From assembly GCA_030693425.1 (NCBI GenBank), contig JAUYAM010000002.1, forward strand, positions 145,151-186,948: a DNA stretch of 41,798 bases, written 5' to 3'. Origin of the DNA: a bacterium (lineage in GTDB: Bacteria; Patescibacteriota; Minisyncoccia; Minisyncoccales; GWA2-46-15). The notes beneath the pieces were generated by a model. That model was given only the letters and a program-made list of their open reading frames with translations. It was not told the origin of the DNA and made no database searches. Within the stretch, counting starts at the first letter, position 1, and each line of letters starts with the position of its first letter. This document shows, piece after piece, positions 547 to 37,021 of the stretch. The position numbers were made by a program, and so were the translations under genes.

Positions 547-1659
547 CTACTTAACAAAATATATTATTTGGTAAATAATGCCGCCGAGAAAAATCAAAAT
601 TAAAGGATAAACCCAGGATCTTTTGGGATGGACTTTTTTGTACATTAAAAGAATCAGGATGCCCTCAATGCCCATCATCACGCCCCCCACCAAACCAATG
701 ATTTCAAGGAAATTCCGCATCCCGAGGGAAAAAAGGACTAAGGGAACGCCGGTTACCAGTAGGAAAGCCAAGTTTTTGGGAATTTTGAAGTCATAGCGAA
801 AGACTTTTTCCAAAGTTATTCCGATAGCGGCAAAAGAAGTAAAAATCGTGATAATTCCCAAAAGAAATCCCAGTCCCGCAATCCCCTGTCCCAGAAACGG
901 TTTTAGCCCAGAAAAAGCGTCTGGGGTGGCGGCCTTGCCGCTAATTCCCAAAATCAGAGCCATAAAAAGGAAATAAAAAATTGCCGAGATTATCATTGAC
1001 GCCCAAACCGCTTTTTTCAGAAGCTTTCCTTTTTTGTCGCCGAGCATCTCTTCTATTTCCGGGATCATAGTCGCGCCCCAGAGAGTAAAAAGCAGGGGTC
1101 CGTAAGGCAGGAAAAATTTGCCAAAACTGGCCGGCGTCAAGAAATTCCCAACGCGCCAAAGCTGGTGTCCGCCGGCCCAAATAATCAAAAGCGCAATGCC
1201 AAAAGCCGCCAAATCCACAAAGTCAATTTTAGCCAAAGGCCTGATGCCAAAATAGATAAAACAAGCGACAAAGGTATAATAGGCCAGGGTGTAAAACAAT
1301 TGGTTTCCTCCGAATACGGGCTGGAGCAGATTGGTTAAAAACTCGCCTCCCATAATCAGGTAAATCAAAAGCGTGCCGAAAGAACCAACAGCCATGGAAG
1401 CCAAAGCCATTTTCTTTCCCCATTTGCCCAAGTGGAATTGGGCAAAACCGGGCAAGCGCATGAAATCAGGCGTCTTTAAAGCCACCTCGGCAAACATTAA
1501 ATGTATCAGCAAAACGAGAGCGCCCAGAATTAAAAAATAACCGGAAGTTATCCAGATTCCGGCTTGGCTGGCGACATAAGGCAGGGTGAAAAACCCGGTG
1601 CCGATAATGACGCTGGTTAGAGTGGCAATCGCCACCAATAATTTTCTGGCGTCAGACAT
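547..1659 (-). CDS. Amino-acid permease (aromatic amino-acid/Aa_trans-like)
   Basis: About eleven hydrophobic helices make this 370-residue protein a secondary transporter. The N-terminal helix has the APC-superfamily unwound-helix motif IIGTGFFTLPY (about residues 18-28), as in the HAAAP/Aa_trans amino-acid permeases. The substrate cannot be read from the sequence. It probably imports an amino acid in an organism with little biosynthesis, which is an inference. The ATG lies one base after a 215 bp palindromic element that occupies the entire 5' flank, and no SD precedes it. A promoter sits on the far side of that element. The gene is followed closely by the CaCA antiporter. Confidence 0.8.
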   Translation of the reverse strand: MSDARKLLVAIATLTSVIIGTGFFTLPYVASQAGIWITSGYFLILGALVLLIHLMFAEVALKTPDFMRLPGFAQFHLGKWGKKMALASMAVGSFGTLLIYLIMGGEFLTNLLQPVFGGNQLFYTLAYYTFVACFIYFGIRPLAKIDFVDLAAFGIALLIIWAGGHQLWRVGNFLTPASFGKFFLPYGPLLFTLWGATMIPEIEEMLGDKKGKLLKKAVWASMIISAIFYFLFMALILGISGKAATPDAFSGLKPFLGQGIAGLGFLLGIITIFTSFAAIGITLEKVFRYDFKIPKNLAFLLVTGVPLVLFSLGMRNFLEIIGLVGGVMMGIEGILILLMYKKVHPKRSWVYPLILIFLGGIIYQIIYFVK

Positions 1660-1660
1660 A

Positions 1661-1875
1661 CCCCGTAGGAAATTAAATATTTTCCGTCATTTTTCTTAAT
1701 CGACTGTTTATATGAAGTAAGGGATGTTTCATTTGATAAGAATTAAATTGAAAAGAAAATATTTGTTAATTATGTTTTTGAATTGATCTTTTAAGGTTTC
1801 TCTGAAAGATTAAAGTCATATGTCTTTAAATCTCTGGCTTGAAAAACAACGAAAACATAATCATTTCCTACGGGG
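1661..1875 (-). mobile_element. MITE-like ~215 bp palindromic element, copy A
   Basis: The ends are perfect 13 bp inverted repeats (CCCCGTAGGAAAT at 1661, its complement ending at 1875). Imperfect pairing continues inward to about 35 bp on each side. The interior is AT-rich and contains no coding frame of note. The element is flanked by ATG on the upstream side and T-ATG on the downstream side, the latter being the permease start codon. A second copy lies at 25073-25286 in front of rplJ in the same orientation, about four fifths identical by eye. An ATG at the upstream junction would open a five-codon frame (MPRRK, then TGA). No transposase is present, so mobility is inferred from the repeat structure. 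Confidence 0.8.
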
Positions 1876-1884
1876 CATATATTT

Positions 1885-24549: not shown

Positions 24550-25071
24550 TCATTTTTTAATTGAACTTAGAACATAAACTAGACCTTTGACGTTTCCTTG
24601 AAGGACGTTAATAAGGCCGGAGATGGGGCCGGCAATGGCGCCGACCAGCTTTGCCAAAAGTTCTTCTTTCGAAGGCAATTGGGCGATCGCCAAAACTTCA
24701 TCTTTTCCGAGCAGAAAGTTGTCAAGAATCCCGCTGATGAATTTCAGGTTCTGGTTTCCTTTGGAGAAATCGTAGAGTGCTTTTAAAGGCTGGATCGGGT
24801 CTTCTAAGCTGAAAAGGACGGCCACTTCCCCCTTCATCTTCCTGGCAGAAACGGCGGAGACCCGGTCTCCTCCGTTTTTCAGAACTAGATTGATCAGAGT
24901 TTTCTTGGCCACTTTGAGAAGTCCTTTGGTTTCCTTCAGTTTCCTGCGCAGAATGACCAAATCGTTCGCTTTCAATCCCTGAATGTCAACAAAAACGATT
25001 GATTTCGCCTTTTTAAAATTGTCATTCAGATCCTCTATGGTTTTTTGCTTTTGGGCTTTTGTTTTTGGCAT
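24550..25071 (-). CDS. rplJ: 50S ribosomal protein L10
   Basis: 173 residues. The N-terminal MPKTKAQKQKTIEDLNDNFKKAKSIVF is a typical L10 start, so the ATG one base after the palindromic element is the true first codon. The 23S-binding domain and the C-terminal L12-binding helix (VGAIAGPISGLINVLQGNVKGLVYVLSSI) are present. Residues about 71-80 (NGGDRVSAVS) are encoded by a palindrome also found in the PBP1C gene. L10 with L12 normally binds its own leader to repress the operon, and an L10-type leader is present upstream. The ancestral SD-ATG now lies 215 bp away beyond the element. Confidence 0.96.
   Translation of the reverse strand: MPKTKAQKQKTIEDLNDNFKKAKSIVFVDIQGLKANDLVILRRKLKETKGLLKVAKKTLINLVLKNGGDRVSAVSARKMKGEVAVLFSLEDPIQPLKALYDFSKGNQNLKFISGILDNFLLGKDEVLAIAQLPSKEELLAKLVGAIAGPISGLINVLQGNVKGLVYVLSSIKK
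24851..24875. repeat. Palindrome ACGGAGGAGAC/CGG/GTCTCC type inside rplJ
   Basis: On the gene strand, 11 bp arms (one mismatch) enclose a CGG loop and encode NGGDRVSAV. The same palindrome with the same frame and orientation encodes NGGDRVSSV near the end of the PBP1C gene (28081-28105). Confidence 0.75.
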
Positions 25072-25072
25072 A

Positions 25073-25286
25073 CCCCGTAGGAAATTAAATATTTTCCGTT
25101 GGTTTTCTTAATCTACTGTTTGTATAAAATAATAGATATTTCATTCGATAAGATTTAAGTTGAAGAGAAAATATTTGTTAATTATGTTTTTAGAATGATT
25201 TTTTACGGTTTTCCTGAAAGATTAAAGTCAAATATCTCTAAATCTCTGGTCCGAAAACAACGAAAACATAATCATTTCCTACGGGG
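25073..25286 (-). mobile_element. MITE-like ~214 bp palindromic element, copy B, splitting the rplJ start region
   Basis: Perfect 13 bp terminal inverted repeats (CCCCGTAGGAAAT and complement), imperfect pairing to about 35 bp, and an AT-rich interior. On the gene strand the upstream flank is TTGGAGACCATG and the downstream flank is T followed by ATG of rplJ, so ATG brackets the element on both sides. Same orientation and junctions as copy A at 1661-1875. In the inner stem the run lengths differ together: five T with five A in copy A, four T with four A in copy B, which keeps the pairing. The upstream ATG opens MPRRK then TGA. Confidence 0.85.
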
Positions 25287-25322
25287 CATGGTCTCCAATA
25301 AAAATCTGCGTTTTGGCGCAGA
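25287..25322 (-). terminator. rplJ attenuator terminator followed by the displaced SD and ATG
   Basis: TCTGCG and CGCAGA form a stem with a 6-nt loop, followed by TTTTTATT (complement of 25297-25304). Then comes TTGGAG (SD GGAG at 25293-25296), ACC and ATG (25287-25289). This is the expected end of an L10 leader: terminator, SD, start. The coding sequence itself begins only after the 214 bp element. Confidence 0.75.
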
Positions 25323-26039: not shown

Positions 26040-28175
26040 ATGAACCTTAATCTTAAAAAAAGAAAACTGGCGACAATCATTCTTGCCCTAATTATCCTGG
26101 GTTTTATCACCGGTTTTTATCAACAGGGGCAGCTGGTAAATCTTTATAATCTTCAGGCTTCGCCGGCAATAAATGACAGAAACGGAGAAATGATCGCCTT
26201 GGAGCCGAACTCTAAAGGTTATTTTAACCGTCCTCTCGAGAACGTCCCCGGGAAAATCGCCGCTCTCTTGGTTAAAAAAGAGGACAGATTTTTCTATTAC
26301 CATTTCGGGATAAATCCCTTGAGCATTATCCAGTCGGCGAGTGGATATTTTGGCATCGGCAAGAGAAAAGCTTCGAGCACCATTTCCCAGCAGCTGGTAA
26401 AAGTTCTTTTAGGGAATGAACTCAAAAGGGATTTGGGAAACAAGATTAAAGAAACTTTTTATACTTTGAGCCTAGAAGTCTTTCACGCGAAAAAGGAAAT
26501 CTTAAAAATGTACGCTAATTCGATTTATTTCGGAAACCTGGCCCAGGGAATTCTCGAGGCGAGCCGGTTTTATTTTGGAGTCGATCCGGAAATGCTGACC
26601 GATGCCCAGATTTTCCAGCTTCTGGCAACGATCTCGAGCCCGACGGAAAACAACCCGGCCGGCAAGAAGAACCAGGAGCTGACTCTGGCTGTTTCAGAAA
26701 GAATGGGATTTCCTGCGCAAGAGTCCGATATAACCAAAGTTTCAGAGGTTCTAGGAAACATAAAAAAACACGACCGCGTTGGCGACTCTTACTTTGAATT
26801 GAAACCGTTTTTAGCCAAAGGAATTGATTCCTGCCGGGTCAGCCTGGACCAAAACCTAAACTCGAAAATCAGGGAAACCGTCAGGCGAAACTTGGGGAAT
26901 CTGGCTGACAAAGAAGTTAAGAACGCCGCCGTCGTTGTGATTGGCTTGCCAGAGAACGAAATCTTGGCCTTGATCGGCTCGCCGGACGCAGGTTCCTTAG
27001 ATTCTGGCTATCAAATTAATATGCTTTTTGAGCCCAGACCCATCGGCTCGACAATCAAACCCTTTATTTATCTCAAGGCTTTTGAAAAGGGTTTAAGGCC
27101 TTACTCTTTAGTTGAAGACAGGGAGTACAAGTACATTACCGCCTTGGGCTTTCCTCTTTACCCGAAAAACTTTGACTATCGGTACCGCGGTCAGGTCAAT
27201 CTCCATTACGCCTTGAGCAACAGTTTAAATGTGCCGGCAGTAAAGGTTTTAGAGTACGTCGGCTTAAATGACTTTTACTATTTCTTGGAGAACGATTTGG
27301 GCATAAAGCCCTTGCAGCCCTGGGAAAACTATCAATTGGGAATCGCCCTCGGCAGTTTAGATTTGAGCCTTTTTGATCTGGCAAGGTATTTTACGATCTT
27401 TCCCCAACAGGGCATTTTGAAAGACCTTTCAATACTCAAATGCCAAAACGTGGGAGGTCGGACCTCCCACAAAACTATCGGAGACCCGGTCTCCGTAATT
27501 CTACAGCCTGTAGTTAAACCGGGCTATATCCAGCTGGTCAATAAGATATTGAGCGATCGGAAAACCTCGATTGATCAGTTCGGAATGAAAAGCGAACTCA
27601 ATCTTTTCCAGGAAAACTACGCTTTAAAAACCGGCACCTCCAGGGACTTTAAAGACAGCTGGGTTGTCGGCTACACCCCTGATTTTCTGGTTGGAGTTTG
27701 GGTCGGCAATGCCGACGCCTCTCCGACCAAAGGTGTTTCCGGTCAGCAAGGAGCCGGCCTGATCTTTTCTGAAGTCATGGAGCTGCTTTTAAATTCTAGC
27801 TACAACAAAAAAACCGCTTTTGAGTTTGACCTCGTCAAAGAGTTCAGGAACGACGGGGATTTTAACTACGGCCTTGAGGGCGACGATTATCAGAAGGCCT
27901 TAAATCTTCTGACCGAAAAAGACGAATCCCTGATTCTCCTTCCGCACGACAACGATTCTTTTCTGCTCGAACTCAATACTAGAATCATTCTGCGCGCCAG
28001 CCAGGAAGTTGACTGGTTTGCTAATAATCAATTTTTAGGCTGCGGCAAAACCTGGATTTTTTCGCCGCAGGCTTTTGGAAACGGAGGAGACCGGGTCTCC
28101 TCCGTCTATCAAATCAAAGCCGTCTCTGAATCTGGCCTGACTCAGGAGCTGACGATTTTCGTCGAAAGTAACTAG
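26040..28175 (+). CDS. pbpC: Bifunctional penicillin-binding protein 1C-type
   Basis: 711 residues: an N-terminal membrane helix, a GT51 glycosyltransferase domain (KKEDRFFYYHFGI, STISQQLVK) and a transpeptidase with Ser337 in STIK, SLN near residue 397 and KTGTS with Lys530. It ends in a small beta domain (LNTRIILRASQEVDWFANNQF) like the C-terminal BiPBP_C domain of PBP1C. It polymerises and cross-links peptidoglycan on the outer face of the membrane. The adjacent convergent alpha-2-macroglobulin gene supports the 1C assignment, since the two co-occur in many bacteria. Residues about 468-492 and 681-690 are encoded by palindromic insertions. Confidence 0.85.
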   Translation: MNLNLKKRKLATIILALIILGFITGFYQQGQLVNLYNLQASPAINDRNGEMIALEPNSKGYFNRPLENVPGKIAALLVKKEDRFFYYHFGINPLSIIQSASGYFGIGKRKASSTISQQLVKVLLGNELKRDLGNKIKETFYTLSLEVFHAKKEILKMYANSIYFGNLAQGILEASRFYFGVDPEMLTDAQIFQLLATISSPTENNPAGKKNQELTLAVSERMGFPAQESDITKVSEVLGNIKKHDRVGDSYFELKPFLAKGIDSCRVSLDQNLNSKIRETVRRNLGNLADKEVKNAAVVVIGLPENEILALIGSPDAGSLDSGYQINMLFEPRPIGSTIKPFIYLKAFEKGLRPYSLVEDREYKYITALGFPLYPKNFDYRYRGQVNLHYALSNSLNVPAVKVLEYVGLNDFYYFLENDLGIKPLQPWENYQLGIALGSLDLSLFDLARYFTIFPQQGILKDLSILKCQNVGGRTSHKTIGDPVSVILQPVVKPGYIQLVNKILSDRKTSIDQFGMKSELNLFQENYALKTGTSRDFKDSWVVGYTPDFLVGVWVGNADASPTKGVSGQQGAGLIFSEVMELLLNSSYNKKTAFEFDLVKEFRNDGDFNYGLEGDDYQKALNLLTEKDESLILLPHDNDSFLLELNTRIILRASQEVDWFANNQFLGCGKTWIFSPQAFGNGGDRVSSVYQIKAVSESGLTQELTIFVESN
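27450..27513. repeat. Three consecutive palindromes inside the PBP1C gene
   Basis: GTGGGAGGT and ACCTCCCAC around CGG (27450-27470); GGAGAC and GTCTCC around CCG (27480-27494); CTACAG and CTGTAG around C (27501-27513). Together they encode about 22 residues (VGGRTSHKTIGDPVSVILQPV) minus a few, between family-like segments, and keep the frame. Confidence 0.75.
28081..28105. repeat. Perfect 11 bp palindrome near the end of the PBP1C gene
   Basis: ACGGAGGAGAC and GTCTCCTCCGT around CGG, encoding NGGDRVSSV in a surface-loop position of the C-terminal domain. Near-identical to the rplJ palindrome at 24851-24875. Confidence 0.8.
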
Positions 28176-35267: not shown

Positions 35268-36296
35268 CTTATTTAGGTTGTGCTCTTCAAGGGTCTGGCT
35301 GAAATAAGTGGTTCCGTCAGGCGCAGACAGATAATACCAATAACTGCTTTGTTTTGGGTAAATGGCGGCCTTGATGCTTTCCAGGCCCGGATTGGCAATG
35401 GGGCCCGGCGGCAGGCCCGCGTACCTATAAGTGTTGTAAAAAGAATCGGTTTTCAGGTCGTCATAAGTGAGCTTTCCCGGACTTTTGCCTAGAGCCCTTA
35501 TACCCGACCGGGTCGGGCCCGGCGCCAGAGCGCCTAGGGCATAAACAATAGTGGCGTCAACCTGAAGCCGCATGCCGGTTTTCAACCTTTTCCAGAGGAT
35601 GCCGGAGACAATCTTTTTGTCTTCAAGAGTCTTTACCTCTTCTTCGAGTAAAGAAGCTATGGTGACTATGTCAAAAATAGTTTTCCCTTGGCTTTTAATC
35701 TTTGACCTGATCTCCGGAGTCAGTTTTTCATCAAAATTAACCAGCATTTTTCTGACTAAAATATTCGTCTCCTCCCCTATTTTCAATTCATAGGTGTCGG
35801 GGAAAAGATAGCCTTCCAGAGAAGCGGTTTTCGGCTTGTCTGCCAGGAATAAAAACTCTTTGGAAAAGTCCTCGTCAGCAGCTCTAATAAAATCTGCAGC
35901 AGGCATGAGGCCGGTTAGTTCCAGGTATTGGCCGATTTCACGCATATTCCAGCCCTCGGGTATGGTTATGGTTTGCCTGGCAATGTCCCCAGAAATGATT
36001 TTTTTTGCCATTTCCCGAGGCGTCATAGCTTGAGAGAATCGGTAATCCCCTGCCTGGAGTTTTCTTGCCCCGCCCTCCAAGAAAACAACGATGTCAAAAA
36101 ACCATTCCTGTCTGACTAAATTTTCTTTTTTGAGATTCTTGGCTATTGCAAAAAGGCCTTGCCCTTCTTCAACAGAAAAGAGTTTTTCTTCGGTTGAGGC
36201 GTTATCATAAGCAAGGTTCATTTCTAGCCAAGTTCCAATAAGGATTGCCAAAACGAGAAGGGATAATAGAATCAAGGTCTTTTTCATGAGATTCAT
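35250..36296 (-). CDS. mltG: Endolytic murein transglycosylase MltG
   Basis: 348 residues with an N-terminal membrane helix (about 7-23). The YceG domain is recognisable: FSVEEGQGLFAIAKNL, IPEGWNMREIGQYLE, LEGYLFPDTYEL, ASLLEEEVKT (catalytic Glu), RLQVDATIVYALG and YNTYRYAGLPPGPIANPGLESIKAAI. It cleaves nascent glycan strands and ends their elongation. Residues 256-270 (ALAPGPTRSGIRALG) are an extra 15-residue insertion encoded by a palindromic element. They repeat the ALG just before them and sit between conserved blocks. Its ATG overlaps the pcm stop (TAATG). Confidence 0.95.
   Translation of the reverse strand: MNLMKKTLILLSLLVLAILIGTWLEMNLAYDNASTEEKLFSVEEGQGLFAIAKNLKKENLVRQEWFFDIVVFLEGGARKLQAGDYRFSQAMTPREMAKKIISGDIARQTITIPEGWNMREIGQYLELTGLMPAADFIRAADEDFSKEFLFLADKPKTASLEGYLFPDTYELKIGEETNILVRKMLVNFDEKLTPEIRSKIKSQGKTIFDIVTIASLLEEEVKTLEDKKIVSGILWKRLKTGMRLQVDATIVYALGALAPGPTRSGIRALGKSPGKLTYDDLKTDSFYNTYRYAGLPPGPIANPGLESIKAAIYPKQSSYWYYLSAPDGTTYFSQTLEEHNLNKVKYLK
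35487..35540. repeat. 45 bp in-frame palindromic insertion in mltG, with flanking 9 bp duplication
   Basis: GCCTAGAGC (35487-35495) and GCCTAGGGC (35532-35540) flank the element. Inside are two hairpins: CCCGAC/GTCGGG around CGG (35503-35517), and GGCGC/GCGCC around CAGA (35521-35534). The same element occurs in inverted orientation in pcm (36438-36485). Confidence 0.85.
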
Positions 36297-37021
36297 TATT
36301 TTGACACTAAGGGAACAAAAACAAAGCCAGGGTATTCAATCTCTTCGAATTCATCTTTACCCTTTTTTATAAAAAGCCAGATGGAATTCCCTATGGGCGT
36401 GACAATCCTGCCGCCTATTTTCAACTGTTCTTTCCAGGCCCTAGGCGCTCTGGCGCCGGGCCCGACCCAGCCGGGTATAAGGGCTTCTGGCAATTCGTTC
36501 CTTCGACTCGGCTCAGGACTTTCAGCCTGGAGGCTGGCAGAAACCAGAATTTTATCGTAAGGAGATTCCTCGGCATACCCTTTTGAGCCGTCGGCACAGA
36601 TAATCTCAGCTATCCCATTTTCAACGAAGTTATACTTGGCGACATTGTCTCTTGCAAACTTCGCTAGCTCTGGAATTATCTCAACGCCAACTACTTTACT
36701 TTTGTATTTAGTATCTAGTATTTTGTATCTGGTATCATTTCCTCCGACGATGCGAGCCAAAAGGGCGGTTGTATAGCCGGAACCGCAGCCAATATCCAAT
36801 ATCTTTTGTCCCGGCTCTGGCTGTAATAATTCCAGCATAAAGGCAACCACTAAGGGTTGGGAAATGGTCTGGTTGTTGCCGATCGGCAAAGCTTCATTGA
36901 TTTCGGCCAGGTCCTTGAGGTCGTCTGGCAAGAAATCAACCCTTTTTATCGCCTTAAAAGCCCTGATGATCTCGGGCGTTTTCAGCCAACCCTTGGCAAT
37001 TAAATAATCAATAAGTCCCAT
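36296..37021 (-). CDS. pcm: Protein-L-isoaspartate O-methyltransferase
   Basis: 241 residues from the ATG at 37019-37021 (MGLIDYLIAKGW); an ATG ten codons upstream would overlap def. It repairs isoaspartyl damage using SAM. Motifs: NNQTISQPLVVAFMLELL (49-66), the SAM loop ILDIGCGSGYTTALLAR (74-90), VGVEI (111-115) and GGRIVTPIG (203-211). Three non-family segments are present: NDTRYKILDTKYKSK (95-109), LQAESPEPSRRN (164-175) and WVGPGARAPRA (185-195). All are encoded by palindromic or simple repeats, all keep the frame, and all fall in loops. The product is about 25-35 residues longer than usual but should fold. Confidence 0.93.
   Translation of the reverse strand: MGLIDYLIAKGWLKTPEIIRAFKAIKRVDFLPDDLKDLAEINEALPIGNNQTISQPLVVAFMLELLQPEPGQKILDIGCGSGYTTALLARIVGGNDTRYKILDTKYKSKVVGVEIIPELAKFARDNVAKYNFVENGIAEIICADGSKGYAEESPYDKILVSASLQAESPEPSRRNELPEALIPGWVGPGARAPRAWKEQLKIGGRIVTPIGNSIWLFIKKGKDEFEEIEYPGFVFVPLVSK
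36438..36538. repeat. Two palindromic insertions in pcm
   Basis: 36438-36485 is the mltG element in opposite orientation relative to the gene (hairpins GGCGC/GCGCC around TCTG, and CCCGAC/GCCGGG with a wobble). 36497-36538 contains TTCGACTCGGCTCAGGA, a relative of the rsmH repeat, and a CAGCC/GGCTG hairpin. They encode residues 164-175 and 185-195. Confidence 0.75.
36701..36736. repeat. GTATTTAGTATCTAGTAT-type simple repeat inside pcm
   Basis: A degenerate run of GTATnTAGTAT/GTATCTGGTAT units encodes DTRYKILDTKYK. The same unit flanks the palindrome in rsmH, where it encodes KILNTRYK. Confidence 0.75.

Follow-up and report, generated by a model that had tools for sequence, protein, structure and literature searches.

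The nearest described ultra-small mobile elements, MPME1 and MPME2 of mycobacteriophages, are about 440 bp long, carry one ORF of 123 aa, possess inverted repeats at both ends and add 6 bp at one (left) end, and in phage Hope the insertion interrupts a gene close to the 5' end of that gene (PMC3029335, PMC4351075; Sampson et al. 2009). Compared by description, they resemble the elements of this study in very small size, single short ORF and inverted repeats at both ends, while they are phage-borne, were not reported as GIY-YIG and show a 6-bp addition in place of the 4-bp duplication detected here. The rRNA genes of CPR bacteria contain insertions that encode a GIY-YIG protein, belong to neither group I nor group II introns and were placed outside homing by the authors; short ORF-less insertions occur there too (PMC11270868). 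These share with our elements the GIY-YIG gene, the CPR hosts and the ORF-less short forms, but were described from rRNA genes only, and the description covers neither ends nor target duplications nor start codons.

GIY-YIG homing endonucleases of the I-TevI class, whether free-standing or intronic, recognise a long specific site, rely on host repair and leave neither a target duplication nor terminal repeats. The PF01541 catalytic domain and selfish spread are common to both systems, whereas the present elements occupy dozens of unrelated sites rather than a single conserved site without duplication, have terminal repeats and a 4-bp duplication, and are not associated with an intron. REP/REPIN sequences are mobilised by a Y1 (RAYT) transposase, again without target duplication. 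Though GTAG/CTAC at the palindrome ends and the presence of Y1 genes are reminiscent of them, our elements are 105-360 bp long, encode a GIY-YIG protein, show no detected link to Y1 and are flanked by 4-bp target duplications, which argue against REPIN/RAYT membership. We know of no prokaryotic terminal-repeat element whose only enzyme is a GIY-YIG nuclease. Literature searches on GIY-YIG elements in connection with CPR, start codons or inverted repeats, with subscription papers and preprints outside their scope, revealed no description of this system and no mobile element aimed at start codons, in agreement with a preliminary description of this DNA whose author knew of no element with such a habit.

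The window copies and their family

In the window, i.e., the whole stretch of 41,798 nt that was analysed, two elements adjoin start codons of genes on the minus strand:

25073..25286, minus strand: copy B, 214-bp element at the rplJ start codon, alpha end (25073 side) towards the gene
25073..25085, plus strand: alpha-end terminal inverted repeat of copy B, CCCCGTAGGAAAT
25274..25286, plus strand: beta-end terminal inverted repeat of copy B, ATTTCCTACGGGG
25069..25072, plus strand: target duplication CATA of copy B (TATG on the gene strand; includes the rplJ start codon)
25287..25290, plus strand: other target copy CATG of copy B (likewise CATG when read on the gene strand, where GGAGAC precedes it; the original start codon)
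24550..25071, minus strand: rplJ (ribosomal protein L10), host gene whose start codon adjoins copy B
25160..25268, minus strand: GIY-YIG nuclease gene remnant in copy B, decayed and internally deleted, from alignment with intact 310-bp copies
1661..1875, minus strand: copy A, 215-bp element at an amino-acid permease start codon
1661..1673, plus strand: alpha-end terminal inverted repeat of copy A
1863..1875, plus strand: beta-end terminal inverted repeat of copy A
1657..1660, plus strand: target duplication CATA of copy A (permease start codon)
1876..1879, plus strand: far-side target duplication CATA of copy A
547..1659, minus strand: amino-acid permease family, host gene whose start codon adjoins copy A

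The preliminary description had estimated these two elements to be about four fifths alike; we measured 86% identity over 189 ungapped nt and a fully identical right end of 36 nt. Its perfect 13-bp terminal inverted repeats were confirmed in both copies, and so were its junctions of the type ATG-element-T-ATG, with the second ATG starting the permease or rplJ. On the gene strand (minus) they read TATG-element-TATG for copy A, followed by a permease of 370 aa (PF01490/PF03222), and CATG-element-TATG for copy B, followed by rplJ/L10 (PF00466).

The window's own genome (848,783 bp, 5 contigs) revealed four full-length relatives and many further ends. A 13-mer search allowing one mismatch led to 26 sites, compared to 1 for the reversed control, and these were resolved into 13 elements of 148-360 bp. 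What had been described as a two-copy element is thus a larger family, which numbers 13 or more copies in the own genome and includes copies A and B. The family ends (CCCCGTAGGAAA../..TTTCCTACGGGG) were also identified in a congener (G001, C20_maxbin.116), in genome G026, in Candidatus Nealsonbacteria RBG_13_36_15, in two Candidatus Liptonbacteria, in Patescibacteria Bin_194 and in DAIDAM, and altogether 48 complete elements of 105-360 bp were extracted from eight genomes. Among 384 genomes drawn from the class, only two, namely the own genome and G026, contained the alpha-end pattern, so that the occurrence of the family is patchy and a wide distribution of the inverted repeats of the window copies was ruled out. 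Spread via viruses was likewise discarded, since the end pattern had no match in viral contigs and the nuclease described below showed a single weak match to phage. A candidate autonomous copy with a transposase (G026:C9:185785-187271) turned out to have unrelated palindromes around ordinary genes as its ends.

Exact 4-bp target duplications flank 30 of the 48 elements, and seven more match in three of four positions. Nine of the exact duplications lack ATG (CAGC, CTTG, CAAT, TAAA twice, TAAG, TATA twice, and CTCG), so that the flanking 4 bp represent a real duplication and not fixed outer bases of the element, one of the two options named in the preliminary description. Two elements each enclose a nested relative that is flanked by a separate duplication (CAAA in L027, CTCG in L251), tandem copies with one common YATG occur at two loci (L223, L253), and the rplJ site is empty in three congeners whose leader region and start are similar. 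Together, these duplications, empty sites and nested insertions establish, at the level of DNA sequence, that the elements are mobile, and bear out the earlier comparison with a MITE. The short copies are MITE-like in lacking an intact gene and in their 13-bp terminal inverted repeats, target duplication, high copy number and origin as internally deleted derivatives of a larger element. They differ from MITEs in that the parent gene encodes a nuclease of the GIY-YIG type rather than a DDE transposase, in their placement at start codons in one orientation and in their conserved internal helices.

Several other repeats were observed. The own genome contains many short REP-like palindromes (L288-L307), which start with CCTG/CTTG plus CCCCGTAG, end with CTACTGGGG or CTACGGGG, have an 8-mer in common with the element ends and in several cases lie near tRNA genes. 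By eye, tRNA genes were also seen within inverted repeats CCCCGTA..AAA / TTT..TACGGGG (L276:25-138, L259:1356-1470). In the window, a 34-bp palindromic repeat (GGAGACCCGGTCTCC core) is located at 24848-24881, 27472-27505 and 28078-28111, with one copy inside the rplJ coding region and many more in the genus, and a 56-nt inverted repeat (35485-35540 and 36438-36493) is 91% complementary, its arms lying 897 nt apart.

The GIY-YIG gene and the fold

Elements of the 310-bp class (L220, L223, L235, L253) harbor an intact ORF of 87 aa (MFYVYVLQSLKDDKLYTGFTNNLQKRILKHNLGKVFSTKSRRPLKLIYIEICLNQKDAKQREKYLKTGTGKTLIKQRLKYYFK..) with a GIY-YIG domain (PF01541, E=1.5e-17), the nearest solved chains being 1zg2 and 1ywl (UPF0213). 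It is the only intact ORF within the family ends, inside which no transposase was found, and is a candidate mobility enzyme. Aligned with this class, the 214/215-bp copies, including A and B, correspond to the 310-bp element after disruption of the frame in its 5' part and loss of its middle, and intermediate states of decay were identified in L218, L225 and L245. As judged from this alignment, copies A and B arose from a nuclease-bearing parent by decay and internal deletion; an intact nuclease of their inverted-repeat family was not seen in the window's own genome, which weighs against this enzyme as the mover of the two copies. The 87-aa protein may itself catalyse the movement.

Besides the terminal stem P1, formed by the ends, two inner helices were predicted:

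25087..25096, plus strand: helix P3 alpha arm of copy B, pairs with 25167-25176
25167..25176, plus strand: helix P3 inner partner of copy B (nuclease codons KVFS in intact copies)
25181..25190, plus strand: helix P2 inner partner of copy B, pairs with 25263-25272 (nuclease codons KHN in intact copies)
25263..25272, plus strand: helix P2 beta arm of copy B (nuclease start codon region in intact copies)
1675..1684, plus strand: helix P3 alpha arm of copy A, pairs with 1755-1764
1769..1778, plus strand: helix P2 inner partner of copy A, pairs with 1852-1861

In 13 beta-class elements, P1, P2 and P3 were paired in 95.8% of cells, dropping to 42-57% on sliding by 1-3 columns, and six pairs had changed on both sides (0 of 500 shuffles as high). 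Across 44 elements, the arms matched their own interior better than the interiors of others (0 of 5000 permutations). As the copies are related and the shuffle controls leave this relatedness in, both statistics overstate independence. For the delta class, whose arm order would form a pseudoknot, matched changes were detected by eye in L020 (GGGATATTTTC/GAAAATATCCC), L015 (AAATATCTTC/GAAGATATTT), L222 and L244, without a pair count, the MAFFT register being off by one in one arm. The helix originally pointed out, with five T against five A in one copy and four T against four A in the other, is not kept in other 214-bp copies. Two neighbouring helices, P2 and P3, are kept, and their paired positions covary across the family, in keeping with the early suggestion that the fold matters. 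Since P2 and P3 persist where nuclease coding is lost, they argue for a role of the folded strand, be it RNA or DNA, which may serve as a recognised structure.

Placement at start codons

In 34 of the 48 elements the alpha end (..GGAAAATATTTAATTTCCTACGGGG) lies at offset 0-2 from the start codon (ATG or GTG) of an ORF no shorter than 60 aa. As background, oriented YATR sites outside coding regions were collected from the same loci plus the window with crude ORF calls, and 54 of 818 (6.6%) were start codons in that sense (p = 1.4e-29); no plausible correction of the ORF calls alters the conclusion. The start-codon placement of the copies is not due to chance. The beta end was found on a start codon once (L250), where the ORF is apparently antisense to the upstream gene, several further elements precede an ORF start by 3-22 nt, and no insertion into a coding region was found among the 48. 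The start codons were judged real based on the canonical N-termini of genes that we take, from their sequences, to be rpmF (MAVPKQRHTKSRRNKRR), rplO, gltX, uvrA and ychF. Shine-Dalgarno sequences were not enriched at the targets (5 of 34 vs. 19 of 116 background starts), so that targeting dependent on them was discarded. Thus, the preference for start codons first noticed at two sites extends to the family, with one fixed end facing the gene, and the further copies are mostly at starts, most exceptions lying 3-22 nt upstream, rather than scattered over non-start positions. Elements near the start of uvrA were observed at different positions in two congeners, G000 and G001, and uvrB of the own genome carries an element at its GTG start (L020, L231 and L022 for these uvrA and uvrB loci).

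GIY-YIG genes of these and related genomes are often enclosed by inverted repeats of other sequence, at least five of which were found at starts, and many of these elements lie on start codons and are co-directional with the host gene (host names in the following list are presumed from recognised N-termini):

L324: CCCCGTTAGAAG at rpsP
L323 and L326: ATCCCGTTAGAG at fmt and at another ORF, respectively
L339 and L340: CCCCGTAGTAG/CCCAGTAGTAG at start codons
L345: CCCAGTAATAC at a start codon
L341: CCCCGTAGAGG at a start codon
L362: CCCGGTAACTC at gmd
L363: CAGGTAGTG at a start codon
L351 and L320: ACCCCCACACCA at rplX and at a speB-like ORF, respectively

On a tree of 53 nucleases, with labels set before L320 and L345 were recognised as start cases, the start-codon label required 5 changes compared to 8.5 after shuffling, with 1 of 500 shuffles reaching so low a count, and the family of the window copies formed one supported clade (99/95). 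Thus, the start-codon habit follows the lineages of the nuclease rather than any single repeat sequence. Of 16 such elements, six have a nuclease frame opened by the host start codon, in five that codon overlaps the nuclease start, and in five it opens a short frame ending 2-13 nt before the nuclease. This count, statistically not decisive, suggests that the nuclease borrows host translation; as six fusions in 16 are, by a rough estimate, not clearly above chance, capture of the host frame is proposed conditionally.

Other GIY-YIG elements were located at tRNA ends, within an apparent rnpB or in frame within msrB. At tRNA 3' ends, inverted-repeat GIY-YIG genes were seen in L315, L328 and L359, with about 14-16 bp of the tRNA end duplicated in the first two. 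L349 (G036:C59) has 26-bp inverted repeats inside an apparent RNase P RNA and is followed by AGGAAAGTCCGAACACC, and L335 (G430:C20) is a 284-bp element with a TTCA duplication in msrB, the reading frame being open throughout. The N-terminal peptide MNPVRD recurs in annotations of CPR genomes; an inverted repeat of L323 and L326 (ATGAATCCCGTTAGAGAT) encodes it, and elements of this type could be the source of such N-termini.

Proposed mode of insertion

Copies A and B are probably non-autonomous, decayed derivatives of a transposon-like element of about 310 bp that inserts at YATG starts. The complete element would comprise the 13-bp terminal inverted repeats, the 87-aa GIY-YIG gene and the fold of three helices (P1, P2, P3). 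Its movement, 4-bp duplication (mostly YATG) and placement on or just upstream of starts with the alpha end to the gene are established as far as sequence comparison reaches. The nuclease would make the staggered 4-nt cut in the target. Landing on a start codon would duplicate it, so that the host gene keeps an intact ATG beside the alpha end, while the original start signal would open a frame running into, or ending beside, the nuclease gene; the element would thereby borrow host translation, and the host ORF would restart at the second ATG. For deletion derivatives mobilised in trans, the fold may be what is recognised as the substrate.

The inverted repeats and 4-bp duplications are, and this counts against our reading, also the footprint of DDE chemistry, and it is conceivable, albeit rather unlikely, that ordinary MITEs were inserted into YATR anywhere by a DDE or Y1 transposase, with purifying selection keeping only insertions that duplicate a start and the GIY-YIG gene being a passenger or parasite of the ends. 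The genomes are compact, so that most other insertions would be harmful, and the own genome possesses four Y1_Tnp genes and scattered palindromes beginning with CCCCGTAG. However, Y1 genes were detected in five of the eight element-bearing genomes and, by the same search, in none of the remaining three, and with no link to the elements found, Y1/RAYT is a less likely mobiliser. What was found between the ends is the nuclease and no transposase, and GIY-YIG genes framed by several other inverted repeats are likewise placed at starts. The census data do not separate targeting from selection as the presumed cause of the start-codon bias, but selection alone struggles with an orientation of one end to the gene in essentially all start cases and with the scarcity of copies in tolerant intergenic sites.

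The same fixed orientation, the retention of the fold where coding is lost and the uvrA elements near the start in both G000 and G001 would also fit a domesticated mobile 5' leader, whose fold and alpha end would provide the downstream gene with useful or regulated translation and whose copies would be kept for that. We regard this as improbable, because the hosts (ribosomal proteins, pilin, permease, glycosyltransferase, tRNA synthetase) form no obvious regulon, rplJ of three congeners does without the element, and complete nuclease copies show the same insertion pattern. Moreover, promoter prediction and a search for a ribosome-binding (SD-like) sequence revealed neither in the alpha end, the predicted rplJ promoter being located upstream of copy B; this result also counts against the proposed restart of rplJ at the second ATG. 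Highly improbable is an element acting at the RNA level, either taken out of the mRNA like an intron or skipped by ribosome bypass, a reading that follows from the original message being restored by deletion of the element plus one YATG, and that is consistent with a P1 stem bringing both ATGs together and with the two kinds of non-group I/II insertions in CPR rRNA genes (PMC11270868), but splicing rescue predicts common insertions inside coding regions, of which 0 of 48 were found, and an Rfam search of the window for a group I/II intron core gave no family but tRNA.

Going beyond the proposed origin of the window copies from a nuclease-bearing element, the family may quite possibly represent a new class of transposable elements, in which about 310 bp with an 87-aa GIY-YIG nuclease insert at start codons, are expressed from the host signal, leave the host a duplicated start codon and use the fold as a substrate that also serves deletion derivatives. 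If this holds, DNA transposition would gain a new chemistry, and the element would rank among the smallest autonomous ones known. The elements show how an insertion can precede essential genes (rplJ, rplX, rpsP, gltX) without breaking them, and they could account for some of the numerous small GIY-YIG genes in Patescibacteria as well as for the so far unexplained insertions with GIY-YIG genes in the rRNA genes of these bacteria.
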